A stretch of 47,500 bases of DNA, from contig JACVTC010000152.1 in NCBI GenBank assembly GCA_016946835.1, forward strand, positions 1 through 47,500, read 5' to 3'. This document shows, one piece after another, positions 3,042 to 37,448 of the stretch. How positions within the stretch are numbered: position 1 is the stretch's first letter; every line of letters starts with the position of its first letter. The translations under genes were made by a program, and so were the position numbers. The notes under the pieces are model-generated. The model searched no databases, was not told the origin of the DNA, and worked only from the letters and a program-made list of their open reading frames with translations. This DNA comes from Neocallimastix lanati (nom. inval.). Its lineage: Eukaryota > Neocallimastigomycota > Neocallimastigomycetes > Neocallimastigales > Neocallimastigaceae.

Positions 3042-3291
3042 AAGAATCTGCGGATCCGAAAATAATATAAAGCTAATAATATATATATAAGAAATATTTA
3101 TAAATTTTCCATATTAATTTTTTTTAATTTAGCAATTAATTTATTCCGTGCTACATATAAGAAATTCTAGTGTACTGAATTCCAAAAAAAAAAAAAAAAA
3201 AAAAAATTTTTGTTTACTGTTCTTACTCTGTGGTTAAGTGAAATTGAGCCAAAGAAGAAGGACTACTATATTTTTTTTACTACCTGTTTGA

Positions 3292-3499
3292 TTTGGTTGT
3301 CGAGGTGTATCTTGAACCAAATAATTATCATTATAAGTGGTCGAAGTGTCATTCGAGCTTATAACCTTAATATAATTATATCTTCTATTGGTGATCGAAA
3401 GGTATTCGAACCAATAATATAAAATTTCCTTAGGTGGTCGAGTGTTATTCGAACCTAAAAATATATTTCTTGTAGGTGGTCGAAGTGTATTTCGAACCT
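3292..3499 (+). ncRNA. Array of five tandem covarying RNA hairpins
   Basis: Five hairpins lie at 3292-3321, 3332-3363, 3386-3416, 3430-3458 and 3474-3499, separated by 10-22 nt of A/T-rich spacer. All share one plan: a lower stem, a two-base 5' bulge (GG, TG or GA), a five-pair upper stem TCGAA/TTCGA (or G-U variants), and a 5-6 nt loop, often GTGTAT. The lower stems differ in sequence but stay paired: TTTGGT/ACCAAA, TATAAG/CTTATA, TATTGGT/ACCAATA, TTAGGT/ACCTAA, AGGT/ACCT. Such compensatory change between copies points to selection on RNA structure. The array lies in the transcribed leader upstream of gag. Function is unknown. Confidence 0.8.
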
Positions 3500-3659
3500 C
3501 ATATAAATAACTATAAAGATATAATTTAATAAACAATAATTATAAAATATTTTAATCTTGGATATCAAAATAAAACAAAACAAAAAAAAAAACAAAAAAA
3601 AAAAACAAAAAAAAAACAAAAAAAAAAAAAAAAAAAAATTTTACTTATTTTTTTTTTTT

Positions 3660-3910: not shown

Positions 3911-4870
3911 ATGGCTTCAGTTACTAATGATACTACTAATGTTCCTTCATTTAAAGATCTTAAAAAGGAACTAAAATATGTTGATAAATTAAACAAGGAC
4001 CATTTGGATATAAAATCTTGGGCTTCTGAAATTGAGTTATGGATCCAATTACAAAATATCACTGATCCAAAAACTATTTTTGTTGCTTGCCTATTAACGT
4101 CTACTGGTGAACCAAGACAAATTATCCAAGAATTAGAACTACCTGCTACTACAGCAGAAGAAGATGTAGAATTGAATGGTTCCACTGATACTGGTGAGAT
4201 GTCAGGATCTAGCACCAGTAGCTCTACTAGTTCAAGTAGTTCTAGTAATGATAGTGTTAGAACTAACCGTTATCCTTCTTTTGTCGAGATCGTCAACGCT
4301 CTTGAAGTATTCTATGGGGCAAAGGAAGATCAGAATACCTTATTAAGGGAATTGCGTGCTCTTAAAATTGGTAGAAATGAAAAAGTAAGGGATTTTAATA
4401 AAAGATATCGGACATTATATTTAAAATTAGATAAAACTCACAAAAAACAAATCAGTATCTTGGACTATGCTGATGCACTTGAGAATAATATTGAGGCCTG
4501 GAAAAGAGTAACTTTAATTGATGATATACCACTTTCAAAGGCTTATGAAATTGCAGAAAAAGTGGATAGACTTGCTGTGAGGTTACATCGTGTACCAAGT
4601 CCTAATAGAAATGTTTCCAACAATAATAATAATAATTATAATAAGAGTCGTAGTTCACCACCAAGAAATACTTATGAAAACAGGGACAATAGGAAAGTTT
4701 CTGATGAAAGTGAAAGGGAGAACCTTACACGTGGACCAAGAAACTCTACCGTCAAAACCTGTTTCTTCTGTAAGGAACCTGGACATTATCAACAACATTG
4801 TCCCAAACTACAAGCCATTATAGAAGAAAATAAGAAACAGATTTTTTCCAAAGGACCTTTAAACCAGTAG
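3911..4870 (+). CDS. gag: Gag protein of the gypsy element
   Basis: This 319-residue protein would form the cytoplasmic virus-like particle and bind the element RNA. The start chosen is the ATG at 3911 (MASVTND), in good context (AGAAATATGG). The frame stays open upstream to 3866, but only from a TTG codon. The first half is an acidic and helical capsid-like region. Residues near 95-125 form a Ser/Thr-rich stretch. An Asn- and Arg-rich stretch precedes a CCHC zinc knuckle, CFFCKEPGHYQQHC (C-X2-C-X4-H-X4-C), at about residues 282-295. The stop is TAG at 4868-4870. Two codons before it sits the slippery heptamer TTTAAAC, so a fraction of ribosomes should continue into pol. Assignment rests on position, the zinc knuckle and the following pol. 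Confidence 0.92.
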   Translation: MASVTNDTTNVPSFKDLKKELKYVDKLNKDHLDIKSWASEIELWIQLQNITDPKTIFVACLLTSTGEPRQIIQELELPATTAEEDVELNGSTDTGEMSGSSTSSSTSSSSSSNDSVRTNRYPSFVEIVNALEVFYGAKEDQNTLLRELRALKIGRNEKVRDFNKRYRTLYLKLDKTHKKQISILDYADALENNIEAWKRVTLIDDIPLSKAYEIAEKVDRLAVRLHRVPSPNRNVSNNNNNNYNKSRSSPPRNTYENRDNRKVSDESERENLTRGPRNSTVKTCFFCKEPGHYQQHCPKLQAIIEENKKQIFSKGPLNQ

Positions 4871-4907: not shown

Positions 4908-7900
4908 ATTAAAATATACTTCCAATTCTTCTGATGCAGAAAGTAAAGACTACAGAGTGGATTATACTATCAAAAGTCATGATCAGGTAGGAGAATATTT
5001 TGTCGGTGCGGCAAAAAGAAAACTTGATGAAAGTGATGTTGAGTTAGATAATGGAAAAGGAAGGAAAATTCATAAAAGCCTACGTGATAATCCACGACCT
5101 ATAAACACTCCTGCATTAAGAAAAAGAAAAGAAAGAGAATTGGAAACTGAAGAGGTGATACCTCATAAGAAACAGTTGCAAACATCAATAATTATGCAAC
5201 CAAATATCAATAAAGAAAAGAAAATTGAAAAAGCAATACGTGATAAAGAAAGATTTTTGAAATCTAGTACTAATTCTAAAGAATTCGAAACTGCATCATC
5301 CAGTCAGTCTAATGTAAACTTAATTACTAATAAAGAGGAAATAACTTCAAAAGTTGATAATGTAGAAGCTCCAAGGGAAATTAACCAAACTAGAGAAAGA
5401 AAAAAAGACAAAAATAATAATAATAATACTAGTAATCCTAATAATAGTAACAACGGAACTATTAGAAAAACCCCAGTCGTAAATGATATTAATAATAATA
5501 ATACTATTAATATTAATAATAATGAAACTATTATCGATAATAATCATGTAACGAATAATAAAAATATATTAAATAAATTAATTAATACAGATGGTATTAA
5601 TAATAATAATAATAATGATAATAATAATAGTATGAAAATACCTCGGGTAAATCGAATTATTAAAATGCTTTCTAATTATAAGGAATATGATGTATGGGAT
5701 GATTTAAGCAATACCAAGTGTAATATTACCTTTGGACAGCTTTGGAATGCTGCGCCTAAAATAAGAAGTCAAGTTTCCCAAGGTTTAAAACTAGTAAAAG
5801 CCACCACTAATGTTGTTGGCGCTATTAATAATGTAGTTGCTACTACAACATTAGTTAATAATGTTGATCATAACTATAAAAGTAAAAGTACAGAAATAAC
5901 AGAGGAGGATATTGCAATGGTAGATGCCTCTGTTGATGGTGTATCTGGAAAATTACTTATTGATACGTGTAGTAATTTAAATATTATGTCACAAAAATAT
6001 TATAATTCTCTACCATACCAATATACCGTTGTTGGTCATAGTTGTGGTAGAATAATGCTTGCCACTAGAGACGATGAATACTCTGAAGGAATAGTCGTTA
6101 GGATACCTGTGAAAATTAATGAGCTTTCATTGTTAATTGATTTCCGAATTGTAGAAAAAGAGGAACCATTTTATGACATGCTAATTAATTTAAAAACTAT
6201 AGTTGATAATAGATTATTTATTAATCCCTTAAATAATTGCTTATGTAAATATAACATGGATGGTACTATCAGTTCTATTACACCAATAAATAATTCTGCA
6301 ATTGACGAAAAATATATTTGTAGTGTTAACAAATTACTTGAGGATAATAGTAAGGAAAAATATGCTGGTGGGGAATTAAAGAAATTAGAAGGATTACCAC
6401 CTATGGAATATATACATAATACAATATTTATGAATACTCTAAATGAAAAATATAGAACTGATATAATACACCTATTAGAGGACAATATAGAAATTGTTGC
6501 TACGTCGTCTGAGGAATTAACACCATCATTGCTTTCACCACACAAAATAAATCTAAAAGCTGGTACCAAACCTATAAAACAAAGAGCTTATCGGCTAACA
6601 AAATTAAAGACAGATATTTTAAAGGAAGAATTAACTAAGTTAATTAATAAAAAGTTAATTGAGCCTTCAAATTCTGAATGGTCTTCGCCTATTGTTCTAG
6701 TACCAAAGCCTAATGGGAAATGGCGTATGTGTGTAGATTATAGGAAGGTTAATGATTCTACTATAAAGGATTCTTATTCTATACCATACATTGATGAAAT
6801 TTTTGATAGTCTCAATGGTGCAACTATCTTCACTACCATTGACTTATACTCTGGATATCACCAAATTTTAATGGAGGAAGAAAGTATTGGTATAACAACT
6901 TTCACCACTAAGTTTGGTAACTACCAATTTAAAGTTATGCCATTTGGTTTAACCAACGCTCCTGCAACCTTTCAAAGAGAAATGAATAGAATCCTATTTC
7001 CTTTAATAGGAAAGTGTGTTTATAATTTTATCGATGATATACTTATATACTCTAAAACAGTTGAAGAACACCTCCAACATATTCAACAAGTTTTATCCAT
7101 ACTCAAAGAAAATAGATTAAAACTTAATATTGAAAAGTGTCACTTCATGAAAACAGAAGTGAATGTTTTGGGGCATAGATTAACCACTAAAGGCTTAAAA
7201 CCTCTTGATAGTAAAATCGAGGTTATCAGAGATTGGAAACCCCCTCAGGACATCCATGAATTACGTTCATTTTTAGGAGCTGTTGGATACTATAGAAATT
7301 TCATCGATAAATATTCACAAATTACTGCGTGTTTGTGTAAATTATTAAGGAAAGGTGTGAAGTATGTTTGGACTAGTGAACACCAAAAATCGTTTGAAGT
7401 ACTGAAAGAAAAACTAATAAATGCACCCATATTAAGTTTCCCTCAGTTTGATAAAGAATTTATTATACGTACCGATGCTTCTTATGATGGAATAGGAGGT
7501 GTGTTATTACAAAAAGATAATGAAACTGGAAAAGAACACCCTATTCACTTTATTAGTAGAAGTTTGACCAGAGCAGAAAAGCATTATGGTATAACTGACC
7601 TAGAAGGTGCTGCCCTATATTATTGTATAACTAAATTAAAACCGTATATAGATGGAAATCCAATACCAACTATTGTATATACGGACCATAAACCGTTACT
7701 AGGGTTGTTCAAAAATAAGGAACCACATAATGCAAGGCAAACTAGATGGTGTTTGACAGCTAGTATGCTTGGTGTAGACATTAGATATGAAACCGGTAAA
7801 AAGAATGTGCTTGCTGATGCCCTATCCCGAATGAAAAATAATAAAGAAAATGTAGTTTTAGCTACGAAAATAATTAACCATGATATTACGAATGATGAAA

Positions 7901-9066
7901 ATGAAGCCTTATTATCCAAAGTAATACATGATTTTATCAATGAAAAATTCACCACTATTGATGGTATTGACTACTTTATTGATGGTAACAATTATAGAAA
8001 ATTAGTAACCGATCTTAATGAAAGAATAAAATTAATATTAGAGGCTCATAATATTGGACACGATGGTTATTATAAGACTTATCAACGTTTACGTAAGAGT
8101 TATTATTGGAACGACATGGTGAATGATGTTAAACGTGTTGTCAGTAAGTGTGAAAAATGTCAATTAAATCGACCACAACCTTATCCAGAGCCTACAGAAA
8201 ATCTACCTACTAAAGTGGAAGGACCTTTTGTACATCTTGGTTTGGACATTATCGGTCCACTGGTTAAAACTAGAAGTAATAATCAATATATAATAGTAGC
8301 TGTTGATTATTTCACTAAGTGGGTAGAAGCAGAACCGACTGAAAATATCACTTCTAAAGACGTAATTAAGTTCCTTATTAACGTATTTTCTCGTCATGGA
8401 GTTCCCCAAGTAATTACCACCGATAATGGTGCCCAATTTACATCAGATATGACTAAAATATTTTTAGACCTATATGATGTATATATAAAATTTGTTACAA
8501 CATATCATCCCGAATCTAATGGACTTACGGAAAATCGTAATAAAGAAATTGGTAAACTCCTTAGATTGCTTGGGACAAAAAATAAAGATTGGGATGAGGT
8601 ATTACCCTCTGCTCTCTGGGCTTTAAGAACCGTTAAAAATAGTACCACTAACCATTCTAGTTTTGAATTAGTTTATGGTCGTGAAGACCAACAACCTTTT
8701 GATATAGCTGCAAGACCGACTAAAGGTATAAATAAATCTTCTGATGAAATTCTATTGGAAAAGTTTATATCTCATTATAGATGGACCATAGAAGCATCAG
8801 AAAATGTGAAAAATGCAAATAAATATTGGGCTGTTAGACGAGAAGAAAAACAAAGTATGAATCAGGCTAAGGAAATCAAGGAGGGAGATTTAGTCCTAGT
8901 TAGAAACTTTAGTAGAACTAAACTAGAACCTTATTTTAATGGACCTTTAAAAGTAATCAAGAAAAAGTTTAATACAGTTACGTTAGCTGATCCAAATTCA
9001 GGAATATTATTAAATCGGAATGTACACCTCAAAAATATAGTAAAATATAACTCAGCTACAATATAG
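4858..9066 (+). CDS. pol: Pol polyprotein (PR-RT-RNase H-IN) of the gypsy element
   Basis: Expressed as Gag-Pol through the -1 frameshift at 4858-4864. The first possible internal start, at 4957, is a GTG, so independent initiation is unlikely. The first about 240 residues are charged and Asn-rich. The protease motif LLIDTCSN lies near 5950; it has Cys where D-S/T-G enzymes have Gly. RT follows with TIDLYSGYHQ (about 6838), MPFGLTNAPATFQ and FIDD (about 7030), a variant of YxDD. RNase H has RTDASYDG (about 7470) and YTDHKPL. Integrase has an HHCC finger (HNIGH to CEKC, about 8047-8160), then Asp in GLDIIGP, Asp in TTDNGAQF and Glu in GLTENRNKE. It ends in a GPY/F-like module (LEPYFNGPLKV). 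The frame is intact to TAG at 9064-9066, so it is likely functional. Confidence 0.95.
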   Translation, partial: FKPVEGRGSTPIKKIASLKYTSNSSDAESKDYRVDYTIKSHDQVGEYFVGAAKRKLDESDVELDNGKGRKIHKSLRDNPRPINTPALRKRKERELETEEVIPHKKQLQTSIIMQPNINKEKKIEKAIRDKERFLKSSTNSKEFETASSSQSNVNLITNKEEITSKVDNVEAPREINQTRERKKDKNNNNNTSNPNNSNNGTIRKTPVVNDINNNNTININNNETIIDNNHVTNNKNILNKLINTDGINNNNNNDNNNSMKIPRVNRIIKMLSNYKEYDVWDDLSNTKCNITFGQLWNAAPKIRSQVSQGLKLVKATTNVVGAINNVVATTTLVNNVDHNYKSKSTEITEEDIAMVDASVDGVSGKLLIDTCSNLNIMSQKYYNSLPYQYTVVGHSCGRIMLATRDDEYSEGIVVRIPVKINELSLLIDFRIVEKEEPFYDMLINLKTIVDNRLFINPLNNCLCKYNMDGTISSITPINNSAIDEKYICSVNKLLEDNSKEKYAGGELKKLEGLPPMEYIHNTIFMNTLNEKYRTDIIHLLEDNIEIVATSSEELTPSLLSPHKINLKAGTKPIKQRAYRLTKLKTDILKEELTKLINKKLIEPSNSEWSSPIVLVPKPNGKWRMCVDYRKVNDSTIKDSYSIPYIDEIFDSLNGATIFTTIDLYSGYHQILMEEESIGITTFTTKFGNYQFKVMPFGLTNAPATFQREMNRILFPLIGKCVYNFIDDILIYSKTVEEHLQHIQQVLSILKENRLKLNIEKCHFMKTEVNVLGHRLTTKGLKPLDSKIEVIRDWKPPQDIHELRSFLGAVGYYRNFIDKYSQITACLCKLLRKGVKYVWTSEHQKSFEVLKEKLINAPILSFPQFDKEFIIRTDASYDGIGGVLLQKDNETGKEHPIHFISRSLTRAEKHYGITDLEGAALYYCITKLKPYIDGNPIPTIVYTDHKPLLGLFKNKEPHNARQTRWCLTASMLGVDIRYETGKKNVLADALSRMKNNKENVVLATKIINHDITNDENEALLSKVIHDFINEKFTTIDGIDYFIDGNNYRKLVTDLNERIKLILEAHNIGHDGYYKTYQRLRKSYYWNDMVNDVKRVVSKCEKCQLNRPQPYPEPTENLPTKVEGPFVHLGLDIIGPLVKTRSNNQYIIVAVDYFTKWVEAEPTENITSKDVIKFLINVFSRHGVPQVITTDNGAQFTSDMTKIFLDLYDVYIKFVTTYHPESNGLTENRNKEIGKLLRLLGTKNKDWDEVLPSALWALRTVKNSTTNHSSFELVYGREDQQPFDIAARPTKGINKSSDEILLEKFISHYRWTIEASENVKNANKYWAVRREEKQSMNQAKEIKEGDLVLVRNFSRTKLEPYFNGPLKVIKKKFNTVTLADPNSGILLNRNVHLKNIVKYNSATI

Positions 9067-9077
9067 CTTGAGTCTTA

Positions 9078-9089
9078 GCGGGGGCATCG
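9078..9089 (+). promoter_or_regulatory. Polypurine tract of the gypsy element
   Basis: GCGGGGGCATCG directly precedes the 3' LTR start TGATAAAG. The GGGGG run is very unusual in this A/T-rich DNA and fits the plus-strand primer site. It sits 12 nt after the pol stop. The copia element has a similar GGGGG tract at the same place. Confidence 0.8.
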
Positions 9090-10166
9090 TGATAAAGAAT
9101 GAAGTAATAAATTGATTCTTATTAAAAACCTTTTAATATAGTCAAGGTGAATTTTAAAATATTAATAAATTTATGTATTCTTTACATTAATAATTTTACT
9201 ATATTATTTGATCTGAAAATTTAAGTTTATACATAAAATTTAATTTAAATTTATGTTCATTCCTTATAAAGGTAAATTAAATTTATGAGAGTTTAGCAAT
9301 AACATAGTACTAATTACTTTTAGTATTATTTTTCTAAATAAGGAATAATTCCTGTATATAAACAACTTAAATAACTTTATCAATATTTCTGTCTTTCGAA
9401 TTAAGAAATAATTGAAATGAAAGAAATAAATAAAATAAAATTTTCTGTATTTAAAATTGTAAAAGATTTTTCATATATTAATAAATGTATTTTATTTTCT
9501 ATTATGTCATTCAAATTAATATATAAGATTACATATTAAATTAGTATCAAAATTAAGTTAAAGTATTCAATTTTATTGTAATACTGCTTCTCTTTTTTTT
9601 GTTTAATTCTTATCTATAATGCATCTTTTATATTATAGATTTATTTTGGTTAATTTGAATATTAGGAAATAATAAAATTTCTATTTATTACAATAAGGAA
9701 ATAATCAATAAGATTTAAAAATCTATTGTTTTTCCATCTCTTCAACTACTTCCAGAGGCTTTGCTACTTTTATATCTTCAAAAAGATATAAATTGACTAC
9801 CTTGGAACCCCTTTTTAGGAGAGAGAGAAAAAAAAAAAAAAAGAAAAAAAAATAGAAATAATAAAAATAAATAAATAAAAAAAAAAAATAAAATAAATAA
9901 ATAAAAATAATAATAAAAATAAAATAAAAATAAAATAAATAAATAAAAATAATAATAAAAATAAAATAAAAATAAAATAAATAAATAAAAATAATAATAA
10001 AAATAAAATAAAAATAAAATAAATAAATAAAAATAATAATAAAAATAAAATAAAAATTAAAATAAAAATATAATAAATAAATAAAAATTATTGTGAAAGA
10101 ATAAAATTTTTTTTTTGTGTTTTAATATTATATAATTTTTTTTTTTGAATTCCTCGAACCATAACA
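9090..10166 (+). repeat. 3' LTR of the gypsy element
   Basis: 1077 nt, from TGATAAAG to CATAACA. By eye it matches the 5' LTR base for base in the unique parts and differs in the number of 42-nt minisatellite units. It is followed by CTTTTGATAC; CTTT also precedes the 5' LTR. Confidence 0.95.
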
Positions 10167-10811
10167 CTTTTGATACAAGATGAAAAGAAAAATAATGATA
10201 TTTTAAAATTATTATTAAATTATATTAATTATATAAAGTTTGTAAAATATATAAAATTAATTATATAAAAATGATGAATTATATTAATTATAAATCATAT
10301 AAAATAATATTATTATAGTATAAAATTTAATTATTATAATATAAACTTTTATATTAATGTTTATATAAAATATAACAATTATGATTTAATATAGAGATAA
10401 TAATTATAAAAAAAAATATATAAAAATATTATAAAAAAAAAAATGTTTTTGTTAATGAATTATTGATATATGTTAATTAGTAATAGTTGATTTAATATAA
10501 GAAAAATGTTTTAATTAGTTAAGATAGTAGTTTAGTTATTAGTTTTAATAAAATTAGTTGTTTAAGTAATTAATTATAGAATATTATAATTAAATTATAA
10601 TTATTAATAGTTAATTAATATGATAAAAATAAAATAAAATAAAATAAAATAAAAATAAAATATTACAAAACAAATATCCTAAAATAAAAATTTTAAATAA
10701 TTAAATAAAATAATTAATATTATTATTAGAATATATAATTTAGTACAATTCCCCAGTGTAGCGCCCAAAACTATTATAAATACGAATATTTAAAATATAT
10801 CGTATCACTTT
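10167..10811. other. A/T-rich spacer between two gypsy LTR insertions
   Basis: No ORF, RNA gene or repeat boundary was recognised. The only base-composition feature is a short G/C-richer patch, CCCCAGTGTAGCGCCC, at about 10751-10766. The stretch ends in CACTTT, next to the LTR that starts at 10812. Confidence 0.6.
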
Positions 10812-11130
10812 TGATAAAGAATGAAGTAATAAATTGATTCTTATTAAAAACCTTTTAATATAGTCAAGGTGATTTTTAAAATATTAATAAATTTATGTAT
10901 TCTTTACATTAATAATTTTACTATATTATTTGATCTGAAAATTTAAGTTTATACATAAAATTTAATTTAAATTTATGTTCATTCCTTATAAAGGTAAATT
11001 AAATTTATGAGAGTTTAGCAATAACATAGTACTAATTACTTTTAGTATTATTTTTCTAAATAAGGAATAATTCCTGTATATAAACAACTTAAATAACTTT
11101 ATCAATATTTCTGTCTTTCGAATTAAGAAA

Positions 11131-11369
11131 TGTTAGAAATTAAGTTTAATATTACACAAGTATAAATAATATAAATAATATAATGTATATAGTATAAAAT
11201 AGATATATGAGCTAGCGTACGTAATAGTGGCGTAAAATAAGTCATATGATATATGTAATAAATGTATGTGAATCATGTGTAAATGTAATAGTATAAAATA
11301 CATGTAAAATTAAAATTTAATATATGTACACCTTTGATATTTATTAATAAAGTTATATATTTCACAACA
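11131..11369 (+). repeat. 5' LTR of the copia element
   Basis: 239 nt, TG to CA. It contains TATAAAA at 11193-11199 as a possible TATA box, and AATAAA at 11346-11351, 18 nt before its end, as a possible polyadenylation signal. No difference from the copy at 16687-16925 was seen. Confidence 0.95.
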
Positions 11370-11485: not shown

Positions 11486-11488
<3 letters not shown>

Positions 11489-12475
11489 TCCGAAGTCTTA
11501 AAAACAAAAGATCAGCTAAATAGCTCTAATTTTAAGTTGTGGAAACAACAATTGTATTTATTATTAAGGAGATTTAATTTAACGGATTATCTTAATAGTG
11601 TCAAAATTGAAAAAGTGGATGGTTCCACTTTAAAGGAAGAAGAAAAACAAAATTTAATTCTAGTGGATGACACTATAAACACTTATTATAAAAAAGGAAC
11701 AAAAAGTGAGGTCCTCAAAAATGATGCTAAGGTCAAGGAAATTATTTTAAATAGTATTAATGAAGAACTAGCATCCAGTATAGATTTCATATCTGGTACA
11801 GCATATGAAATCTATAGGATGATAGTAAACCTAAATTTAAGTGATGAAAAGGATAGAATTGAGGAAATTAAAGATTCCCTTAATCACTCAAAATACGACC
11901 CAGAAAGTGATCCATCGTTGTCCATATTTATCTCTAATATGAATTTAAAGTTTAAGGAACTTGAAAATCTCGGAGAAAAACTAGAATTTAAGGAAAAATT
12001 TATTTATCTATTTAATGCTATGCCAGAAGAATTAACTATAAAAACAAATTTAATAGACCTACAAACGGACTGGGAAGATACTACCAAAAAGTTAATTGAA
12101 AGGGTACAGCTACTAAAAAGAGTAAAAGAAAAGAAAGAAAAATCGGAAAATATTGTTTCAAATCTTAATACGCCAAATGTTCAAAGTAATTATACCAATA
12201 AAAACTATAGTAATAATAATAATAAATATAATAATAGAAATTATAAAAATAATATTGAATGTTGGAGTTGTGGTAAAAAAGGTCACTATCAAAGTGAATG
12301 TAATAATAGAAAGAATTTTAATAAAAATAATAATAACAATTATTACAAATATAATAAAAATAAATTTAATAATAATAGAAATAATAATAAAAATTATAAT
12401 AATAATAAATATTACAAAAATGATAAAAACTATGATGGGAGGCGAAACGCGTTGCCTAAACAGCACAGTAAATGA
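11486..12475 (+). CDS. gag: Gag protein of the copia element
   Basis: A 329-residue capsid/nucleocapsid protein. The ATG at 11486 follows the A tract, with A at -3. The N-terminal half (LNSSNFKLWKQQLYLLLRR, residues about 11-29) matches the Gag start of copia-type elements, where a conserved Trp lies in the first helix. Residues about 75-210 are helical and charged, UBN2-like in style. A CCHC zinc knuckle, CWSCGKKGHYQSEC, sits at about residues 259-272. The tail is almost only Asn, Lys and Tyr, then GRRNALPKQHSK and TGA at 12473-12475. Pol lies in the +1 frame and overlaps this low-complexity tail. Rare codons GGG AGG CGA near the end are candidates for the shift. Confidence 0.92.
12437..12443 (+). 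promoter_or_regulatory. Candidate +1 frameshift site between copia gag and pol
   Basis: Gag (frame 2) and pol (frame 3) overlap, so a +1 shift is needed. In a tail written almost only in A/T codons, gag suddenly uses GGG AGG CGA AAC GCG at 12437-12451. GGG AGG C resembles the Ty1 signal CTT AGG C, where a slow AGG codon lets the P-site tRNA slip by one; here GGG could re-pair on GGA. The exact site is inferred; any position up to the TGA at 12473 is possible because the pol frame is open far upstream. Confidence 0.4.
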
Positions 12476-15400
12476 AGTAAATAAACAAGATAAACACAGA
12501 GAATACTTTTTCAAAGACTATAATGATGCGTATAATATTGAAACAGGTAATGCATCAAGAAGTATTCTCCCATTCAACAAACCATCTTATTTTAAAGAAA
12601 ATAAAAATAAACAAAATAAAAAATTAAATGATAATAATAAAAATAAATTAACCAGAAATATTAGTACATGGACACTAGATTCTGGCACCACATACCATAT
12701 GATATGTGATCCAAATCTATTATCAAATTATAAAAAACACAATCGGAGAATTTATTTCGCCAATGGTGAATACGTTAAGTGCAGAGGAATAGGTACTTAC
12801 ATAGGTTATATAAATGACAACAAAATTACTCTTAAAAATGTATTGTATGTTCCCTCATTCAAGAAAAATTTACTCTCAGTAGACTGTTTATCCGAACAAG
12901 GATACAAAACTGTTTTTTGTAAAAGAAATAATAAAAATTGTGTAATATTATTTAATAGTAAAAATAATAGAATCTGTACAACATATTCAAATTATTCCAG
13001 AACTTATATTATTTGGACTTCCAAGAATAAAATAAATTTTTATAATAATGATATCAATTGTAATAATGCCAATAGTGAAGAAGAGGAAAGTCTCTACGTA
13101 TGGCATAGACGTTTGGGACATTATAATCTAGGAACACTTAGGAAAACATTAAAAAGAATATATATAAAATGTAAATGCAAGACGTGTGCGAAAACAAAAT
13201 TAAAAAATTTCCCACATTACCCCTCAGATAGTCGCGCTACTGAACCATTTGAATTGGTTCATATGGACACTGTTACTATTAATAGTAGGTCCATGTATGG
13301 AAATAAATACTTTGTTTCTATTTTAGATGATTACACTCGTTTTGGTTGGGTCTTATTTATCAAATCCAAACGTGATGTTTTTAACGCCTTTTTAAATTGG
13401 TATAATAACATTAAAAACATATTTAATAAAAATATTAAAAGATTACGGACTGACAATGGAACAGAGTTTACTAACAATAAAATTATAGAGTTTTGTAATA
13501 TTAATGGAATTACACATGAGTTTTCTGTCCCTTACGAACCTCAACAAAATGGACGTATCGAAAGGTTACACGGTTCTCTCCTTCCAAATGCTAGAGCGAT
13601 GTTAGAGGATGCCCGCCTTAATCATGTTTTCTGGGAGGATGCCATTAGGACAGCTAACTATATCCACAATAGGATGCCACATAGAGGTATTGATAATAAT
13701 GTTCCGTATGAACTTCTTTATAATGAAAAAGTCGATTATTCAAGGTTTAGAGTCTTTGGTTGTCAAGTCTTTTTCCTTGTCCCTAAACAGTTTAGAAATA
13801 AATTAACTAACTCTTCCCTCCCAGGTATCTTTCTTGGATACGATACCAACCCAACTGCTTATAGGATTTTTGATATCACTAATAATAAAGTTGTTATTTC
13901 TCGTTCTGTTGTATTTTTTGAAGATATTCCTGGTAATGGTTCTGCTCCTCCTTCTCCTCCGGATTTAATAAATTTCACTCCTTATTATGAAATCGGGGGA
14001 AGTAATGATGATGAAGACGTTGTAGACTTTGAGGACAATAACGTAAATGATAAAAGTATAAATGAAAATAATAACAATATGGAAAATAGTACAAACAATA
14101 ATGTAGATAATAATAATAATATGAACAACAACATAAATGATAATATAAATGGGTACACAAACTATTACTACAATAATTTAGATTATCCACCTCCTAATAA
14201 TTTATATTATTATAATCCATATGCATTTGTAAATTATCCAAATAATTTCCAAAATCATTATGCTCCAAATCAATATAATTTAAATCCATATAATAATTTA
14301 AATTATTGTATTCCTCCAAATTATTATAATTATACAGCACAAAACTTTCCCTCTCCTGTTTTAAATTCTCAGAATGGACATCCCATAAATTACCAAAATC
14401 TAAACGTTTCTAATAATTCAAATATTAATCAAAATAATTTAAATCAATTAAATTCAAATGATGTAGACCATTTAAATCAAAATAATTTAAACAATAATTC
14501 AAATCAAAATAATTCAGACAATAATGATCAATTTAACTCGAACAATTTAAATCAAGGTAATTTAAATAATTTAAATCAAGTTATTTCGAACAACAATTTA
14601 AAACAAGGCAGTCCAAATGACAACTTAAATCAAGCAATTCAAAATGATAATGTTAACAAGAATAATAGAAACAACTTAAATGACCAAACTAATTCAATTA
14701 ATAATGTAAACAATATCAATAATGTAAACCAGTTAACTCAAAATAATTCGAAATATAATAATACTAGGGTAGAAGAAATAATCAGTAAAATACCAAGAAT
14801 TACAGATAATGGAGATTATAATAAGCGTGATGGAAAATCAATTGATTTAAATAATTTAACGAATAGAAATAATAATTCAAGCTCAACATCTGGAAATTCT
14901 AATGCGGAAATTAACCAAAATATAAACAAACAAAACATAAATAAACCATATGCAAGTAAATCAAATGTAAGTACTTCGGATAATATGAATAAAGATAAAG
15001 AAAGTATTTTATCTAAAAGAAAACATGTTGAAGAAATGAATGAAGAAGAATTAAATGATAGGAATGAAAGTAATAATTATAAGAAAAGGAGAGCAAGTAA
15101 TTATTATAATTTAGTTGCATTAAATTGTAGTGAAATGGAATTACCGTTACCAAACTCGTATAAAGATATATTTGATAGACCTGATAAAGAGGAATGGTTA
15201 AAGGCAATTGAAACTGAATTAAATAACATGAAGGATATGGAAGTGTACACACTTGTTAAAGAAATTCCAAAAGGAAAGAATATAATTTCAGCTAAGTGGG
15301 TATTTAGCTATAAGAGAAATGACGTAGGTATAATTATAAGATTTAAGGCGAGGTTAGTTGCTCGCGGTTTTACTCAAATTTATGGAATAGACTATATAGA

Positions 15401-16673
15401 AACATTCTCACCTACTTTAAAGCAAGATTCGTTAAGAGTCATTATAGCAATTTCAATTTATTATGGTTTTGAAATTTATCAAATTGATATTAAAGCGGCA
15501 TATTTAAATGCTGACTTAGAGGAAGAATTATATATGGAAATACCTGAAGGTAGTGAAGATTATGGTAAAGGCTATTGGAAGTTGAACAAAGCGATTTATG
15601 GCTTAAAACAAGCTGGTCGTATGTGGAATAATAAATTAGATAGTGTTCTTACTGAAATAGGTTTTGAAAGATTAAAGAGCGAACCATGTGTTTATATATT
15701 GAAAGATAAGAATAAGAATATTATTTGTATAATTGCTATTTATGTTGATGATATCCTAATTTCTGGAAAGAAAAGTGTTATAGATAGAATTAAATTAGAA
15801 ATTAAAGACAAATTCAATTTAAGTGACTTAGGAATGGTTGATTTCATAGTAGGAATCAAATTTATTAAATGCAAGGATGGTTATATTATGCATCAAATAC
15901 AATATTTAAATGATATCTTAGATAGATTTGACATTGATAAATACAATGCGATATCAAATATGATGTATACTGAAAATGAGAAATTAAGAGAAACAAAGTT
16001 TGATAAAACTACATATATGCAGGCTGTAGGATGCTTACTATATTTAGCTATGGGAACAAGACCAGATATTATGTATGCGACAAGTAAAGCTACTAGAAAG
16101 AATCAAGATCCTACTCTCGAAGATTGGATGAATGTTATCAAGATTTTTAGATACTTAAAAGGTACAAAACATTATGGTTTAAAGATTACTAAAGACATTA
16201 ATATAAGAGTATATGTAGACGCAGATCTAGGTGGTGATAGAGAGACAAAAAGATCAACTACTGGTTTCGTAATATTTATGGGTTCAGCTCCTGTGACATG
16301 GTATTCAAAGTTGCAACACTGCGTAGCTATATCTACCGCTGAAAGTGAATATTATAGTCTGAATGAATGTGCTTTGAAATGTATGTGGTTAAGAAATTTA
16401 CTGAATGAATTAGGCATAAAAATTGATTGTATAACAATTAACATTGATAATAGAGCTGCAATTTATAATAGTAAGAATGAAACAATTAATCCAAAATCAA
16501 GACACATAGATTTGAGATATCATAAAATAAGAGAATTGATAAAAGAAGATAAAATAGACCTCAAGTATATCAAATCACAATACAATATTGCAGACGGTTT
16601 TACCAAATACCTTAATGGTACTTTAACGAAAAAATTCAAGAACTCTTTACTATACAAAATTTATGAATATTAA
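12440..16673 (+). CDS. pol: Pol polyprotein (PR-IN-RT-RNase H) of the copia element
   Basis: The frame is open from 12153, but the part overlapping gag is low-complexity shadow; the real product is a Gag-Pol fusion. Protease: WTLDSGTTYHM (about 12670) with D-S-G. Integrase: finger HRRLGH with CKCKTC (about 13105-13185), then catalytic Asp in HMDTV, Asp in RTDNGTEF and Glu in NGRIERLHG. A long Asn-, Gln- and Tyr-rich linker (about 14035-15000) precedes a basic pair, KRK and KKRR (about 15017-15090), like the bipartite nuclear signal of Ty1 integrase. RT: AKWVFSYK, QIDIKAAYLNA, YGLKQAGRMW and YVDDILIS (about 15739). RNase H: YVDADLGGD, STAESEYY and SRHIDLRYHKIRE. The frame is intact to TAA at 16671-16673. 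Confidence 0.95.
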
Positions 16674-16686: not shown

Positions 16687-16925
16687 TGTTAGAAATTAAG
16701 TTTAATATTACACAAGTATAAATAATATAAATAATATAATGTATATAGTATAAAATAGATATATGAGCTAGCGTACGTAATAGTGGCGTAAAATAAGTCA
16801 TATGATATATGTAATAAATGTATGTGAATCATGTGTAAATGTAATAGTATAAAATACATGTAAAATTAAAATTTAATATATGTACACCTTTGATATTTAT
16901 TAATAAAGTTATATATTTCACAACA
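16687..16925 (+). repeat. 3' LTR of the copia element
   Basis: 239 nt, matching 11131-11369 at every base compared. It is followed by AGAAA, the target duplication, and then the resumed gypsy LTR (TAATTGAAATG). Confidence 0.95.
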
Positions 16926-17635
16926 AGAAATAATTGAAATGAAAGAAATAAATAAAATAAAATTTTCTGTATTTAAAATTGTAAAAGATTTTTCATATAT
17001 TAATAAATGTATTTTATTTTCTATTATGTCATTCAAATTAATATATAAGATTACATATTAAATTAGTATCAAAATTAAGTTAAAGTATTCAATTTTATTG
17101 TAATACTACTTCTCTTTTTTTTTGTTTAATTCTTATCTATAATGCATCTTTTATATTATAGATTTATTTTGGTTAATTTGAATATTAGGAAATAATAAAA
17201 TTTCTATTTATTACAATAAGGAAATAATCAATAAGATTTAAAAATTTATTGTTTTTCCATCTCTTCAACTACTTCCAGAGGCTTTGCTACTTTTATATCT
17301 TCAAAAAGATATAAATTGACTACCTTGGAACCTCTTTTTAGGGGAGAGAAAAAAAAAAAGAAAAAAAATAGAAATAATAAAAATAAATAAATAAATAAAA
17401 AAAATAAATAAAAATAAATAAAAATAATAATAAAAATAAAATAAAAATAAAATAAATAAATAAAAATAAAATAAAAATAAAATAAATAAATAAAAATAAT
17501 AATAAAAATAAAATAGAAATTAAAATAAAAATATAATAAATAAATAAAAATTATTGTGAAAGAATAAAATTTTTTTTTTTTGTGTTTTAATATTATATAA
17601 TTTTTTTTTTGAATTCCTCGAACCATAACACTTTG

Positions 17636-26482: not shown

Positions 26483-28145
26483 AGACTTAGAGAAAACTTT
26501 ATTTAATTTATAATAATAATAAAATTACATGAAATTAAATGAAAAAATAACAAATAAAATACATGAAATAAAATATTATATATTATAAAATTATAAAAGT
26601 GCGTTAGAAGCAATAGCCTCTAACTTTTCCCATTCCTCGATAATAACACCACGTCCATTATTGTGAGTAATAATTTCAGTATTAGTGTTATCAATCGAAT
26701 CTGTATCTGGAGGTGAAAATCCATGCCTTATCATTTCGACGTCGACGCTCTTGGTAACGGTAGATTCAACGGAATACCATTTCATCATCAAACTAAAAGA
26801 TCGACAAATTAATGGTATTACGTTTGTTAGAAACTCCGCAATCCCCACAAAATACGGAACAGTTGACGAAGTTGAACTTTGTTTAAAAATATTGTCAACT
26901 AATTGTCTTTGTTCCCCATCGTTAACTTTAATTTTTGAATATATTGAACGCCCACCAAGAAGTGCACTCAATATATAATAATAAATATTATTATCATAAT
27001 CCTTTTCTGAATCTAAAGAAACATCCAAGGATTTTTGTTCAATTATCAATGCAAACTTCAAAAAGAGATCATCTAGAAAAGGTAAAGATTTATTTCTGTA
27101 ATTTTCCAATTCTTTACAGGCAAAGATCCAGTGAGAAAAGCTGGGTACACTAACACCACAACAAGGGCAACATTTAGGGCAATCTTCTGAGACGATTTTT
27201 CTTTTAATGGAAATACTAATGTCGAATTTAAAACCACACCTAATTCGAGAAATCCAAAAGAATCCCAACTGATACTTAGGATATTGAAATGTTAAGTTTC
27301 TGATTTCTGAAATAAATCCAAAATCATTCTCCTTGTAAATAATTGCTTTTTTAGCTTTTGAGGGTTTGAAGACATCTCTTTCCCAATAAAACTTTTTTAT
27401 TTCACTTGTTTTTTTACCATTTAATTTCTTATCCAAAGTCCTTGATTCTTTAGTCCATGAGTAATGTGACATAGTAGGAATATTATTAGTGAGATGATTA
27501 ATAATACATGATGAGTTTTTCCATTTTCTAAAGCAACGTAATTGAGATATAGCACAGACAGCTGAAAGAGGAGGTATTCTCAATTCACGAGTAATATTAT
27601 AGAGACTAACAGAAGAATTGCGAGATTTAAATCCGTAACTCCAATAAAGTCCTCTATTAATAATTTTTTGAGCTTTAGAACATCTGCTCTTATTTGAACC
27701 AAAGAGAGGGGCATAATATATAACAAGACTAAGAATAAACGAAATTAAAACATATTTCTTCAATGGGAGAGGAACAGATTTATTAATAAGAAATCGAAAG
27801 TACAAATTTAACTTGACATTTAAATTACTGTTTAATTTGGATTGTATAGGTTTCAGTGATAAAGATTCATCAAAAGGAATACCAAGATAGGTATAGTTGT
27901 CAGTTTTAGGTAATTTTTTACTACCAATAAAGAAAGATGGATCTTCATAATTTATCGGTTTAACAAAGTTAATTGGTTTTACAACAAGAGTAGCACACTT
28001 ATTAATTCCAAAAGTCATTTCATTTTTAATAGCCCATTCATGAACTTTATTCAAAATTTTCTTAAGAGCTTGTTTAGATGGAGCAACTAAAACAATATCA
28101 TACGCAAAAAGTCCACCACAACAATATTGAGAATCTAAATATACA

Positions 28146-28148
<3 letters not shown>
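26456..28148 (-). pseudogene. LINE copy B, 3' part, RT active site mutated
   Basis: Poly(A) tail at 26456-26482, 3' untranslated region, then a frame open from 26591 to 28148 covering the RT palm end, thumb and C-terminal zinc-finger region (CPKCCPCCGVSVPSFSHW) and the tail KSVDVEMIRH. The RT catalytic box reads FAYD where A, C and D have FADD, so the first Asp is lost. At 28148 it is interrupted by LINE A; the frame continues at 33093-33129 (NDILDNCDKYGVYL), beyond A. B is therefore older than A. B's tail abuts coding sequence of LINE C, so B inserted into C; no matching duplication was found at its other end. Confidence 0.85.
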
Positions 28149-28192
<44 letters not shown>

Positions 28193-28280
28193 CTAGGAAT
28201 AAACTTTATTTAATAATATTTTTTTTAAAAAATACATGAAATTTAAATACATGAAATTTTTTTATATTAATATTAAAAAA

Positions 28281-31200
28281 CTACGTAATGAGCTTCGAGG
28301 ACGAAAAGGCCTCTAACTCTTCCCATTCATCGAAGATAACCCCATGTGGATGAAAATTATCATTCGAATCTGTATCAGAATTTCTTCTTTGCCTTATCGT
28401 TACGACGTCGACACTCTTGACAACGGTAGGTCTAACACTATACAAATCGATCATGGTGTAAAAATCACCAATCACAATAGGCATAACGTTAGTAAGGAAT
28501 TCCGCAAGCCCCACAAAAAATGAAATCGGGAAAGAAGACTCGTTCGAAGGTGATTGAAAAATATTATTAATAAGTCGCCTTCTTTCCCCCGAGCCGATCT
28601 TTAAGATTTCAAATACTGCATTTCCGCCAAGAAGGATACACAGCACGTAAAAATTGATATTATCATCAAAATCTTCCTCTTTATCATCAGGAATGTTCAA
28701 TGATTTCTCATGAACAATTAGAGAAAAATTAATAAAAATTTCATCAACAAAGGGAATGAAATGTTGCCTAAATTCTTCAAATTTAGGACATAAAAGTATC
28801 CAGTGTGTAAAACTAGGTATGCTGTTACTCTCACCACAACAAGGGCAGTATGTTGGGCAATTTTCTGATACTAGATTACTTTTAACATACGTTTTTACAT
28901 CAAATTTGAATCCACATTTAATTCGTCCAATCCAAAAAAATCCAAGAGAAAATTGTGAATATTTAAGTGATAGACGATGAATAAATTTTTTAAAACCAAA
29001 TTTAAATTTCTTGTATTTTGTAGATCTGATCGCAGGAGTGCTTGAATAATGAATATTTTCCCAGTAAAACTTCCTTATTTCTCCAGGAAGTTTATTACTG
29101 TGCTTGTGTACTGCTAAACTCCGTGCTTTTTTCGTCCAAGAATAGTGAGAAAGTGTAGGTATATTTTTGACTAAATGAGAAATAATACAAGAAGAATCTT
29201 TCCACTTTTTAAAGCATCGAATCATCGCCTTAGCACAAAAACTAGCTATAGGAGGTATAGAAAGTTCCTTAGACATATTGTAAATTGAAATATTGGAGGT
29301 TTTATTTTTAAACCCGAAACTCCAATACAAACCTCGATTAAAAGCAGTTTGAGCTTTTTCAGTATTCTTTTTATTTGAACCAAGTAAGGGAGCATAATAA
29401 AGAACTGAACTAAGGACAAAAGAAACTAGTATACGAGTTTTAAAGTAGAAAGGAACATTCCTATTGGTTAAAAATCTAAAGAAAGAGTTAACTGTATAAT
29501 TAATTTTACTGTTCATCTTAGCAATAATAGGTTTTAAATCCAACGATTCATTAAAAGGTATACCAAGATATGTATATTGATTAGTGCTTGGAATATAGTT
29601 CATACCAAGTCTAAATGTAGGATTTTCATAATGTCTTGAAGGAATAAAATTCTTTGGTTTAACAACTAGTGTAGCGCATTTATTGATTCCAAAGGTCATT
29701 TCATTTTTAATACCCCAATCATGAGCAATATTCAAAAGGTTTTTAAGTGAAGATTTTGTAGGAGCTAATAATACAATATCATCAGCAAATAATCCACCAC
29801 AACACTTTTTCTTTTCAGTAATCACACCATATCTTTTACATTTATCAAAAATATCATTGATAAATATATTGAATAAGATAGGTGAGAGAGGACACCCTTG
29901 GCGAACACCACGGTGTATTGGAAATTCTTTTGAAAGTTTACCATTAAAGTTTGCACGAGCTTTCGAGGTAAGGTATAGATTAGTAATGAATTGAAGGCAT
30001 TTACCACGAATACCAAGATTATCTAGTTTAGTAAGTATATTGTAAATTGGAACTGAATCATAAGCTTTTTTAAGGTCAAGAAAGGCAAGAAAGGTAAATT
30101 TATCCTTAAATTTTCTTCTTTGACAAATTTCACGAATGGATACAAATAAACTAATACATTCTTCTTTATTTCTAAAACCAAACTGTTCTGGTCTAATTAT
30201 TCCATTAGAAAAAGCATAGCCCGATATTCTTTTAGTGACAATTTTTGATAGAATTTTTAAACCTACATTGATGAGTGAAATACCACGATAATTATTACAA
30301 TCTGAAAGATCCCCTTTTTTAGGAATAGAAACAATAGAAGCAGAGTTCCATTCATTAGGAAAGTCACCATCCCAAATTTTATTAAAAAGTAATAACAGAC
30401 ACTTTGCACAATCGGAATAAGTAACCTCTTGATTAGAGTCATCCTGAGAAGAATTTCTACTCTCAGAATTAAAAAATGCTTTAAAAAATTCTGTAGGTAT
30501 ACCATCAGGACCAGGTGCTTTGTTATTTTTCATTGAAAGAACAGTTGAATGAATTTCTGACATGGAAATAGGTTGATTAATATCCCATGATTCCTGAGGA
30601 GTAGAAGAATTATTAAGTATTCTTTTCCAATAATTTTCATTAAGACTGTGACCAGTTATATCAGAAGCAAGTTCTTCATAGTGTTCTGCAAAACGATTGA
30701 GTTGATCTTCTTGGGATACTAGAACATTACCTTCTTTATCTTTAATGTATACAGGTGATTGGGAAGGAGAGTAAGAAGGTTTAGAAATTTTCTTAAGTCC
30801 AGACCAACCACGCTGGGCATCATTTTTTAAGAAACATTCGCCGATGGAATGAATCAAATTTTTAAATCTAATATTTCTAATATTTCTTTTAATACTAATG
30901 ATATAATCAGAAAGAACTCTATATTCTTTTGAGAGATCACAAAATTCTTGAAGATTTGACAAATCATTACGAAGTTTAAAATTTTTAATCCTTTTATAAA
31001 ATAAATGTTTTTCATGTGATAATTTCTTAATATAAGCAGGACAATGGAACGCTGAACCCTGTAAATTTGTAGGAACTCTTGCTTGAATGTCATCGCCTAT
31101 TTTATTTGCTGTGTCAAGAAGTTTTTTAACCATTGTATTAGAGTCTAGATTATCATTATGTTCAAATTCATCCAGTAAACATGTGAATTTATTATGAGAG

Positions 31201-32366
31201 AAGATTGCTTCACGTTTATCCCTACAAATTCGATTAGACCACTTAATTTGTTTATCCCGAGGGGGAGTAACAAAACCATCAGGAGATATTTTTTTACAAG
31301 AAAGAATAAGTGGTAAATGGTCAGAGATGTCATTAAAAGAGTAGCATACAGAAGCAATATTCAGATAATTTCTTAATTTATCGTTCACTACTATAAAATC
31401 AATACAAGAATTCTTTCCACCATTAGACCAAGTAAATTGATGACCAACCATATCCATAACAAACCATTGAGGGGAAATTCTAAGAATAAGATCTTTGAGT
31501 TGTTGCTTAGTCATGTTGAAATCACCAACAATAGCCGAAGGGTTATTCTGATGGTTCTTGAGCCAATTAGCAAAATCAGTTTCCGCTTTTTCTCTAGAGT
31601 CTTTGTGTTTTTTGCTAGGGATGTAAATGTTCCCTAAAGAACATCTGACACCCCAAAAAGAGAATATATTTACTGAGAGTATATATCTATATTCAAAATC
31701 ATCATTAGTGAATTGGCAGGAGGAGTGCACACCTATATAAAGGCCCCTCATACCAGGGATTTTTTTGTCCGCACGTCTCAGTACTGTTCTATAATGATTA
31801 AGGAATGGATATGAGTTAGAAAAGGAGTTAAGGAATGAACTATTACCGACTTCTTGAAGACAAATACAAATAGGATTAAAGATTGAATTAAAATTGGTAA
31901 GTCCGTCACGTTTTTCAGAATTCCAACCATTTATGTTCCAGCTAATACAGAGGTTGAAATATTTAGTATTCGAGAAAGGGTTAGCATACAGGAGGCTTTC
32001 AGAGATGGGGATTGAGGGTTCAGAATAATACCTGGTTCTATTATGATTAACATTACTAAATGTGCGTATCCTTGAAGTAATCTTCCATTTAATTCTTTTA
32101 ACAGGTAAGTGCTTAGTAATCAAATAAATAACCTTCAAATAATCCGTACAATTATTATAGTTAACTCTTAGGATGAAGTAGTTTTCCATATTAATATAGT
32201 GTTTTTTAACGATTCCATGAACAACTTCATTACAATTTGATATCTTTTTGCTTAAAAATTCCCATAGTCTACTTTCAGTCCAAGATTCAAGATCATGAAT
32301 GAAAATTAAAACAAATTTATCATGGTCAGGACCATAAAGTCGCAGACCTCTTCGTATAGTTGACAT
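28281..32366 (-). CDS. LINE endonuclease-reverse transcriptase, intact
   Basis: This 1361-residue protein would nick the target and reverse-transcribe the element RNA in place. The start is the ATG at 32364-32366 (MSTIRRGLRLYG), the first in the frame. Residues about 1-135 form an N-terminal domain of unknown type. The APE-like endonuclease covers about 140-360: SWNINGW, LQEVG, GDFNM (near 283) and SDHLPLIL (near 349). RT follows: APGPDGIP (near 620), SIPKKGD with NNYRGISL, FLDLKKAYDSVP, RGVRQGCPLSPILFN and FADD (near 862). A Cys/His cluster, CPTYCPCCGESN then HW (near 1172), and the tail KSVDVVTIRQ follow. There is no separate ORF1 in the element. The family (single-ORF APE-type LINE) is clear; the clade is not assigned. 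Confidence 0.93.
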   Translation of the reverse strand: MSTIRRGLRLYGPDHDKFVLIFIHDLESWTESRLWEFLSKKISNCNEVVHGIVKKHYINMENYFILRVNYNNCTDYLKVIYLITKHLPVKRIKWKITSRIRTFSNVNHNRTRYYSEPSIPISESLLYANPFSNTKYFNLCISWNINGWNSEKRDGLTNFNSIFNPICICLQEVGNSSFLNSFSNSYPFLNHYRTVLRRADKKIPGMRGLYIGVHSSCQFTNDDFEYRYILSVNIFSFWGVRCSLGNIYIPSKKHKDSREKAETDFANWLKNHQNNPSAIVGDFNMTKQQLKDLILRISPQWFVMDMVGHQFTWSNGGKNSCIDFIVVNDKLRNYLNIASVCYSFNDISDHLPLILSCKKISPDGFVTPPRDKQIKWSNRICRDKREAIFSHNKFTCLLDEFEHNDNLDSNTMVKKLLDTANKIGDDIQARVPTNLQGSAFHCPAYIKKLSHEKHLFYKRIKNFKLRNDLSNLQEFCDLSKEYRVLSDYIISIKRNIRNIRFKNLIHSIGECFLKNDAQRGWSGLKKISKPSYSPSQSPVYIKDKEGNVLVSQEDQLNRFAEHYEELASDITGHSLNENYWKRILNNSSTPQESWDINQPISMSEIHSTVLSMKNNKAPGPDGIPTEFFKAFFNSESRNSSQDDSNQEVTYSDCAKCLLLLFNKIWDGDFPNEWNSASIVSIPKKGDLSDCNNYRGISLINVGLKILSKIVTKRISGYAFSNGIIRPEQFGFRNKEECISLFVSIREICQRRKFKDKFTFLAFLDLKKAYDSVPIYNILTKLDNLGIRGKCLQFITNLYLTSKARANFNGKLSKEFPIHRGVRQGCPLSPILFNIFINDIFDKCKRYGVITEKKKCCGGLFADDIVLLAPTKSSLKNLLNIAHDWGIKNEMTFGINKCATLVVKPKNFIPSRHYENPTFRLGMNYIPSTNQYTYLGIPFNESLDLKPIIAKMNSKINYTVNSFFRFLTNRNVPFYFKTRILVSFVLSSVLYYAPLLGSNKKNTEKAQTAFNRGLYWSFGFKNKTSNISIYNMSKELSIPPIASFCAKAMIRCFKKWKDSSCIISHLVKNIPTLSHYSWTKKARSLAVHKHSNKLPGEIRKFYWENIHYSSTPAIRSTKYKKFKFGFKKFIHRLSLKYSQFSLGFFWIGRIKCGFKFDVKTYVKSNLVSENCPTYCPCCGESNSIPSFTHWILLCPKFEEFRQHFIPFVDEIFINFSLIVHEKSLNIPDDKEEDFDDNINFYVLCILLGGNAVFEILKIGSGERRRLINNIFQSPSNESSFPISFFVGLAEFLTNVMPIVIGDFYTMIDLYSVRPTVVKSVDVVTIRQRRNSDTDSNDNFHPHGVIFDEWEELEAFSSSKLIT

Positions 32367-35992: not shown

Positions 35993-37448
<1,456 letters not shown>

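Follow-up and report, generated by a model that had tools for sequence, protein, structure and literature searches.

The array and its host element

The stretch of DNA analysed here, hereafter the window, comprises 47,500 nucleotides of a Neocallimastix lanati contig (JACVTC010000152.1; 76.7% A+T) from a genome assembly of 199 Mb in 762 contigs. The hairpin array lies in a Ty3/gypsy LTR retrotransposon that reads on the forward strand and is bounded by two LTRs and a target-site duplication. The 5' LTR (TGATAAAG...ATAACA) occupies positions 1183-2279 and the 3' LTR positions 9090-10166; a comparison of the two revealed no mismatches, only indels, and the tetranucleotide CTTT was read from the sequence on the 5' side (1179-1182) and the 3' side (10167-10170). 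A primer-binding site (PBS), TGGTGGAGATATCGGGGA, complementary to the 3' end of tRNA-Ala(UGC), is found at 2287-2304. It is followed by a gag ORF with one C-x2-C-x4-H-x4-C zinc knuckle (3911-4870), by a pol ORF with domain matches in the order RT, RNase H and integrase (4957-9066), and by the tract AGCGGGGGCATCG (9077-9089), which abuts the 3' LTR and was named the polypurine tract (PPT) from its position. The Ty3_capsid match in gag (E 6.2e-05) is under the curated cut-off, and a homologue named Orpsp1 is among the Pol relatives listed. The genome has 54 candidate copies of the array region, and the 40 that were scored, a lower bound, are 99-100% identical. The array-bearing copy is a young Ty3/gypsy element, and its family is referred to below as W.

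The tRNA 3' end that matches the PBS occurs at 34 genomic sites, and ARAGORN called a tRNA-Ala at two of the three sites checked. One place, L136 (C2:1651990-1652085), carries the tRNA-Ala 3' end followed by a genomic CCA, with the 5' half replaced and no ARAGORN call, and is possibly a reverse-transcribed primer fragment. Elsewhere in the window, an LTR of the W gypsy family (10807-11131 and 16925-17630) is split by a Ty1/copia element with ORFs at 11486-12475 and 12153-16673, and three ORFs on the reverse strand (26591-35074), judged by eye to be non-LTR (LINE-like) in look, adjoin an actin-like ORF at 35993-37075.

An earlier note on this DNA had described five tandem hairpins of one plan in the leader, at 3292-3499. 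Five such hairpins were indeed found, at 3291-3502, so that the coordinates were right within a few bases, and each consists of a lower stem, a 2-nt bulge on the 5' side, a TCGAA/TTCGA-like upper stem and a loop of 5-7 nt. All five are on the forward strand: hairpin 1 at 3291-3322 (ATTTGGT-TG-TCGAG-loop-CTTGA-ACCAAAT), hairpin 2 at 3331-3364 (ATAAGT-GG-TCGAA-loop-TTCGA-GCTTAT), hairpin 3 at 3385-3416 (TATTGGT-GA-TCGAA-loop-TTCGA-ACCAATA), hairpin 4 at 3429-3459 (TTAGGT-GG-TCGAG-loop-TTCGA-ACCTAA) and hairpin 5, with an imperfect lower stem, at 3471-3502 ((TG)TAGGT-GG-TCGAA-loop-TTCGA-ACCTCAT). Some details of that description needed amendment. Lower stems had been said to be paired in every copy, which holds for hairpins 1-4; in hairpin 5 two outer pairs are broken and re-form only if a bulge is allowed. 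The GTGTAT-like loop is seen in four of the five hairpins, and hairpin 3 has the loop AGGTA instead. The upper stem is nearly constant, as described, inside the window; across families it varies with compensation.

A scan for the plan (at least 5 lower pairs, a 2-nt 5' bulge, at least 4 upper pairs, a loop of 3-8 nt and at most -6 kcal/mol) revealed four hairpins in the 1624-nt PBS-to-gag leader of W, whereas 100 dinucleotide shuffles gave 0.04 on average and never more than 1; the fifth hairpin is omitted because it has only 4 unbroken lower pairs and the cut-off is 5. The fold of the array region has a z of -3.61, and 1 of 200 shuffles folded equally well. In the minimum-energy fold of the whole region, hairpins 1, 3 and 4 form locally, and the sequence of hairpin 2 pairs with that of hairpin 5 because their upper stems are alike. 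Of the 55 stem cells in the five window hairpins by themselves, 96.4% are paired, with two-sided changes in 4 of the 11 pairs. This level of pairing was attained in 2 of 500 arm-shuffling trials, fell to 48-56% when the arms were slid by one column, and was attained by 2 of 120 permutations (true order included) when the lower 3' arms were permuted among the copies.

Three copies of a W subfamily (C30, C57 and C423; 89% identity) show how single hairpins change. The upper stem of hairpin 1 is TCGAA/TTCGA in these copies and TCGAG/CTTGA in the window, a difference that comprises one two-sided change from G-C to A-U and one change from G.U to G-C. Broken pairs occur as well. In C57 and C423, the lower stem of hairpin 1 is interrupted by an A.C mismatch, and hairpin 2 has T instead of G in its upper 3' arm; in all three copies, hairpin 3 has lost one of its lower pairs.

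One hairpin plan in five families

A pattern match resembling hairpin 5 led beyond W to a different element on C63 (L039), which shares the PBS and has four to five hairpins of its own. In the genome, 705 places have the PBS TGGTGGAGATATCGGGGA with A, C or G as the next letter, and 68 of them were read (30 + 20 + 18). At least 10 element families, the window's own included, carry this tRNA-Ala(UGC) PBS; a family N (L112) was also seen. The first 30 loci fall into families A (6), B (7), C (9), D (1), E (5) and F (2, with L072 grouped by its interior). Family D (L045) was dropped because of a reversed foreign pol downstream, C755 was dropped because its 5' part comes from another element (L073), and L135, entered as family F, proved to have the sequence of family B.

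Covariance model R1, built from the window, subfamily and C63 hairpins, matched in all 9 C loci and in both F loci, and in none of the 19 other PBS loci up to E 10; the array of the E loci is situated past the 1.5 kb covered. Across 26 sources (142 kb), model R2 gave 64 matches up to E 5, and outside the arrays it matched only at window position 27645 (E 0.016) and L040 1010 (E 0.46), besides a sixth hairpin in the W subfamily copy L041. R2 was built including these families, so this result speaks for specificity and is not an independent discovery. The sixth hairpin, degenerate and marginal, may lie just before the array at about 3225-3256 (forward strand), as judged from the sequence of subfamily copies; its match in L041 is weak (18.4 bits, E 0.027 with R1; 13.3 bits, E 1.6 with R2), and neither model matches it in the window itself.

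The plan recurs upstream of gag in the diverged families C, E and G of the same genome, and in all four families, W included, the array sits between PBS and gag. The C leaders L046, L058 and L082 carry 6, 7 and 8 units with a period of about 40 nt, and in L046 and L082 the array ends 144-174 nt before gag. In family E, four units span L075 653-823, with gag at 945; three of the four E places read have the array (L075 and L138 with four units, L137 with three in the stretch covered), and no array was found in the fourth, L133. R2 finds four units in L074 and three in L134 of family G, with a period of about 60 nt, and a degenerate last unit was read by eye besides. A comparison of the two G arrays revealed a difference of one unit of about 60 nt, which indicates that the number of units shifts by tandem duplication or slippage; overall, a leader holds 3 to 8 units. 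Searches of the E and G arrays against the window array by blastn gave nothing better than E 0.01, so the plan has been retained without the sequence. The plan scan found 4 hairpins in W, 6 in C, 4 in E, 4 in G and 2 in F, against shuffle means of 0.02-0.09 and a maximum of 2 (for E and G, means of 0.05 and 0.08 and maxima of 1); in G, three of the four hairpins lie in the array and one, at 329, lies outside it.

A second structured leader domain, common to families B, C and E and 75-83% identical among them, was also observed. Numbered from after the PBS, it spans L044 122-407, L046 630-946 and L048 39-316, and a short stretch of it was read by eye in family G (L074, about 1395-1445). Its hairpins include CCTACATAG...CTAGTAGG (B, C and E) and ATGACACC...GGTAAGCTG (B and G), and it gave no Rfam match.

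When 21 hairpins from W, F, C, E and G were compared, 95.2% of 231 cells were found to pair, with two-sided changes in 8 of the 11 pairs (40 cells), and pairing was at most 55% with slid arms. The covariation score was 0.616, compared with 0.296 +/- 0.025 after shuffling, and 0 of 500 shuffles reached it; the number of two-sided pairs by itself was matched by 41 of 500 shuffles. Covariation in this set is overstated for E, G and F2-F4, because the E and G hairpins came from a scan that demands pairing and hairpins F2-F4 were selected by eye and folding. Less biased counts are given by the window's five hairpins alone and by the 11 hairpins that remain without these, of which 93.4% of cells pair, with 5 two-sided pairs and a score of 0.354 against 0.174 +/- 0.027; the shuffle-controlled plan scan is the fair test of the presence of the array in E and G.

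The upper stems seen include TCGAA/TTCGA, TCAGC/GCTGA, TCAGA/TCTGA, TCAAA/TTTGG and TTAAA/TTTGA. Three positions are invariant in 21 of 21 hairpins: the last U of the lower arm on the 5' side, the U that opens the upper stem, and the G across from the second upper-stem position. That second position is C in 20 of 21, an A closes the upper 3' arm in 19 of 21, and the purine after this A is divided between A (10) and G (11). F3, F4 and G1 have a bulge of 1 nt and the other hairpins one of 2 nt, with G as the second bulge letter in 17 of 21. Every one of the 21 loops contains G (49 of 137 loop letters), and the loops follow no strict sequence motif. Taken together, these comparisons show the unit to be a predicted RNA hairpin with a U-[1-2 nt bulge]-UC...GA-R junction and a G-bearing loop, kept by compensatory change in five families.

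A plain tandem duplication of DNA, or palindromes at the DNA level, could produce repeated hairpins with no RNA function, and the near-identical tandem units of C (about 40 nt) and G (about 60 nt), one G copy having one unit fewer, clearly do duplicate as DNA. As an account of the array, however, this is highly improbable, given the two-sided changes in 8 of 11 pairs, the bulge that stays on one side (with the bulge moved to the 3' side, the sense-strand scan finds one hairpin in W and none in C, E, G or F), and the G.U cells, which outnumber A.C cells by 22 to 2 of 231, or by 11 to 2 with the closing pair left out. This excess of G.U over A.C points to sense-strand RNA; averaged over 20 plan hairpins, the folding energy is -8.4 for the sense and -6.6 for the antisense strand.

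In the window alone, a link to the primer tRNA was attractive. The 3' arms (TCGAACC) could pair with the T arm of tRNA-Ala (GGTTCGA) and serve as an extra primer-recognition site: TTCGAACC is present in three of the five W arms and is complementary to the T arm of tRNA-Ala genes, and PMC4974528 describes the use of T-arm-complementary sequences by Ty1. However, the complementarity is lost in C, E and G, which alter this stretch (e.g., TCGAACT, TCGAGTC and TTTGGAA) with an unchanged PBS, and we regard such a site as barely credible.

A non-coding carrier and families without the array

Family F carries the array in an element that appears to code for no protein. The copy at C7, the one F element read end to end, is complete, with 533-nt LTRs that start with TGATAAAGAAT, as in W, and are 97.2% identical to each other, a 4-bp duplication (ACTG), the same PBS as W, the PPT AGCGGGGGCATCA and an interior of 2116 nt. 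Two overlapping stretches of this interior contain no ATG-started ORF of at least 45 aa, and they gave no match to the Gag or Pol of W, nor to the Gag proteins of families A, B, C and G. The array lies 230-500 nt past the PBS, and its region is 93-100% identical at the 40 places scored out of 49 candidates for F. From one F copy to another, hairpin F3 has T-A or G-C as its outer pair, a two-sided change. In L039, an F copy in which a LINE-like insertion was read by eye, one lower pair of hairpin F2 is broken, and the hairpins are barely better conserved than the spacers when L059 is compared with L039 (182/195 against 333/377).

The position of the array upstream of gag, with gaps of about 410 nt in W, 120 nt in E, 145-175 nt in C and 285 nt in G, would suit a control of gag translation by ribosome shunt, a scanning barrier or start-site choice. 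This is rather improbable, since F has the array and no ATG-started ORF of at least 45 aa after it in the stretches read. Retention of the array in a non-coding element argues for a role in cis, in packaging, dimerisation or reverse transcription, and we infer that the array acts in cis on the genomic RNA. The proposal of the earlier note that the hairpins are a selected RNA element is thus supported by the compensation in both stems across five families, by the bias of G.U over A.C, and by the retention of the array in F.

A chimera, L072 (C13:1158876, within C13:1157376-1160394), has an A-type LTR (96.5% identical over 1041 nt) that is joined at the PBS with the interior of an F element (97.2% over 1406 nt), the structure that template switching between co-packaged RNAs would be expected to leave. 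It suggests that F-like RNA is able to travel or be copied with family A, which is without the array.

The condition under which the earlier note would give up its claim (relatives without the hairpins, or with stems no more often intact than broken) yielded a mixed picture: among nine autonomous families with a complete PBS-to-gag leader, four (W, C, E and G) have the array, and some close copies have broken pairs, so that the array is patchy and not universal. The complete leaders of families A, B, J, H and K showed no array with R2 or the plan scan, and none was found in families L and M, in which no PBS was recognised. Within the group of W-like Gags, four of seven families have the array. 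Gag identity to W is 44-48% for A, B and J and 26-28% for K and H; the PBS of A, B, J and K is the same as in W, and that of H agrees in its first 14 nt only. CCHC knuckles are present in the Gags of W, A, B, J and H, and none was found in the searched stretches of K and of E (a copy with a broken gag). The Gag tree has no starred branch, so it gives no order of gain and loss. Two scans revealed no relatives among viral contigs, and a scan of genome contigs revealed seven more distant ones binned in rumen MAGs, with Gag identities of 24-39% by local matches in six; the array was found in none of the seven, a weak result, since the sequence before gag is just 17-812 nt long in six of them and gag is missing from one.

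Proposed function and known systems

The array is probably a cis-acting RNA element in the genomic RNA of a Ty3/gypsy group that marks the RNA for packaging or copying. Our best guess, which we give an even chance, is that it would be a signal for the packaging of genomic RNA through Gag. The zinc knuckle of Gag would bind the exposed guanosines of loops and bulges, several units together would nucleate Gag and select the genomic RNA, and packaging might be coupled to dimerisation. By sequence, the array has Psi-like features, namely a leader position between PBS and gag and conserved hairpins with G in their loops. In HIV-1, NC knuckles bind exposed loop guanosines, according to PMC7599994, and a purine loop of MMTV is implicated in packaging in PMC8096270; Gag recognition through exposed G would be the most economical reading.

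Several observations stand against packaging through Gag. The array is absent from A, B and J, families that share the PBS and have related Gags with zinc knuckles, and hence is not needed for packaging in general; the loop motif is loose, no CCHC was found in the E copy, the L072 chimera joins F to a family without the array, and hairpins 2 and 5 cross-pair in the whole-region fold. Furthermore, PMC7599994 reports that packaging changed very little when the GGAG loop of HIV-1 was replaced, and that the NC of MoMuLV, which has one knuckle like W, bound a linker and not its isolated hairpins.

A role in dimerisation or reverse transcription (genome-genome contact, primer annealing or strand transfer), and not in Gag selection, would be cis-acting too and would fit the retention of the array in F. 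The TCGAA/TTCGA upper stems are near self-complementary, so cross-pairing within or between RNAs is conceivable, as for hairpins 2 and 5, and PMC11381356 proposes that the dimerisation of Ty3 is driven by a palindrome within a hairpin. However, the G-bearing loops of the 21 hairpins are not palindromic by eye, which makes classic kissing unlikely, and the upper stem differs among units and families, although cross-pairing would favour identity; we therefore hold this role to be unlikely, if still worth weighing. Binding of a host protein that exports the RNA from the nucleus, stabilises it or localises it would fit the same evidence for RNA structure, and retention in non-coding F would be expected under it too. 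It is made doubtful by the patchy occurrence of the array among element families within one host and by the fact that no Rfam family matched (no matches in the window at the gathering score, and none in eight loci at E up to 0.5), and we consider it a distinctly minor prospect.

In its fullest form, the packaging reading would make the array a modular set of Gag-recognition hairpins, that is, a new RNA motif that provides a multivalent packaging signal in a fungal gypsy clade, that families acquire and lose, and that a non-coding element exploits as a parasite; we advance this tentatively, as somewhat short of an even bet. Among the titles and abstract openings listed from the openly accessible literature on retrotransposon leaders, hairpins, packaging signals and gut-fungus retrotransposons, none describes such an array. 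Leader hairpins for packaging and dimerisation are already known; a repeated array of a single plan across retrotransposon families looks new.

A close likeness is to SL2 and SL3 of HIV-1 Psi (GGUG and GGAG loops), likewise short leader hairpins between PBS and gag with exposed loop guanosines that are candidate knuckle targets. The HIV-1 leader hairpins differ from one another, whereas the present arrays consist of 3 to 8 repeats of a single plan that includes a bulge of 1-2 nt. Like the elements of the LARD, TRIM or VL30 type, class names that we presume to be apt for F, this family keeps LTR, PBS, PPT and leader signals without gag and pol; it differs from them in bearing the hairpin array. 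Some F and E loops (CAGAGAGA, GAGAGAT) resemble the single-stranded purine loop GGAGAAGAG of MMTV SL4, with the difference that there one retroviral loop is concerned and here an array in fungal gypsy elements.

Among yeast elements, Ty1 (copia) also uses structured RNA 3' of the PBS in replication, with a pseudoknot and T-arm and D-arm boxes after the PBS; its pseudoknot is long-range, the sections of PMC4974528 covered mention no repeated hairpins, and tRNA complementarity is not conserved in the array described here. Ty3 of Saccharomyces belongs to the same Ty3/gypsy superfamily and has cis signals toward the 5' end of its genomic RNA and a palindromic dimerisation hairpin, and the word 'tandem' is absent from the main text of the 2024 structure paper, so far as its text was available (PMC11381356). 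Packaging sequences are described as not precisely defined in the papers on Ty1 (PMC4974528) and Ty3 (PMC11381356). From comparative analysis alone, the array would be a discrete, repeated and structurally conserved packaging candidate, and it comes with natural controls, F as a minimal element and A, B and J as families without the array, so that the choice of its own RNA by a retrotransposon becomes directly testable. If the reading is true, the array would constitute a comparatively defined packaging signal in LTR retrotransposons.
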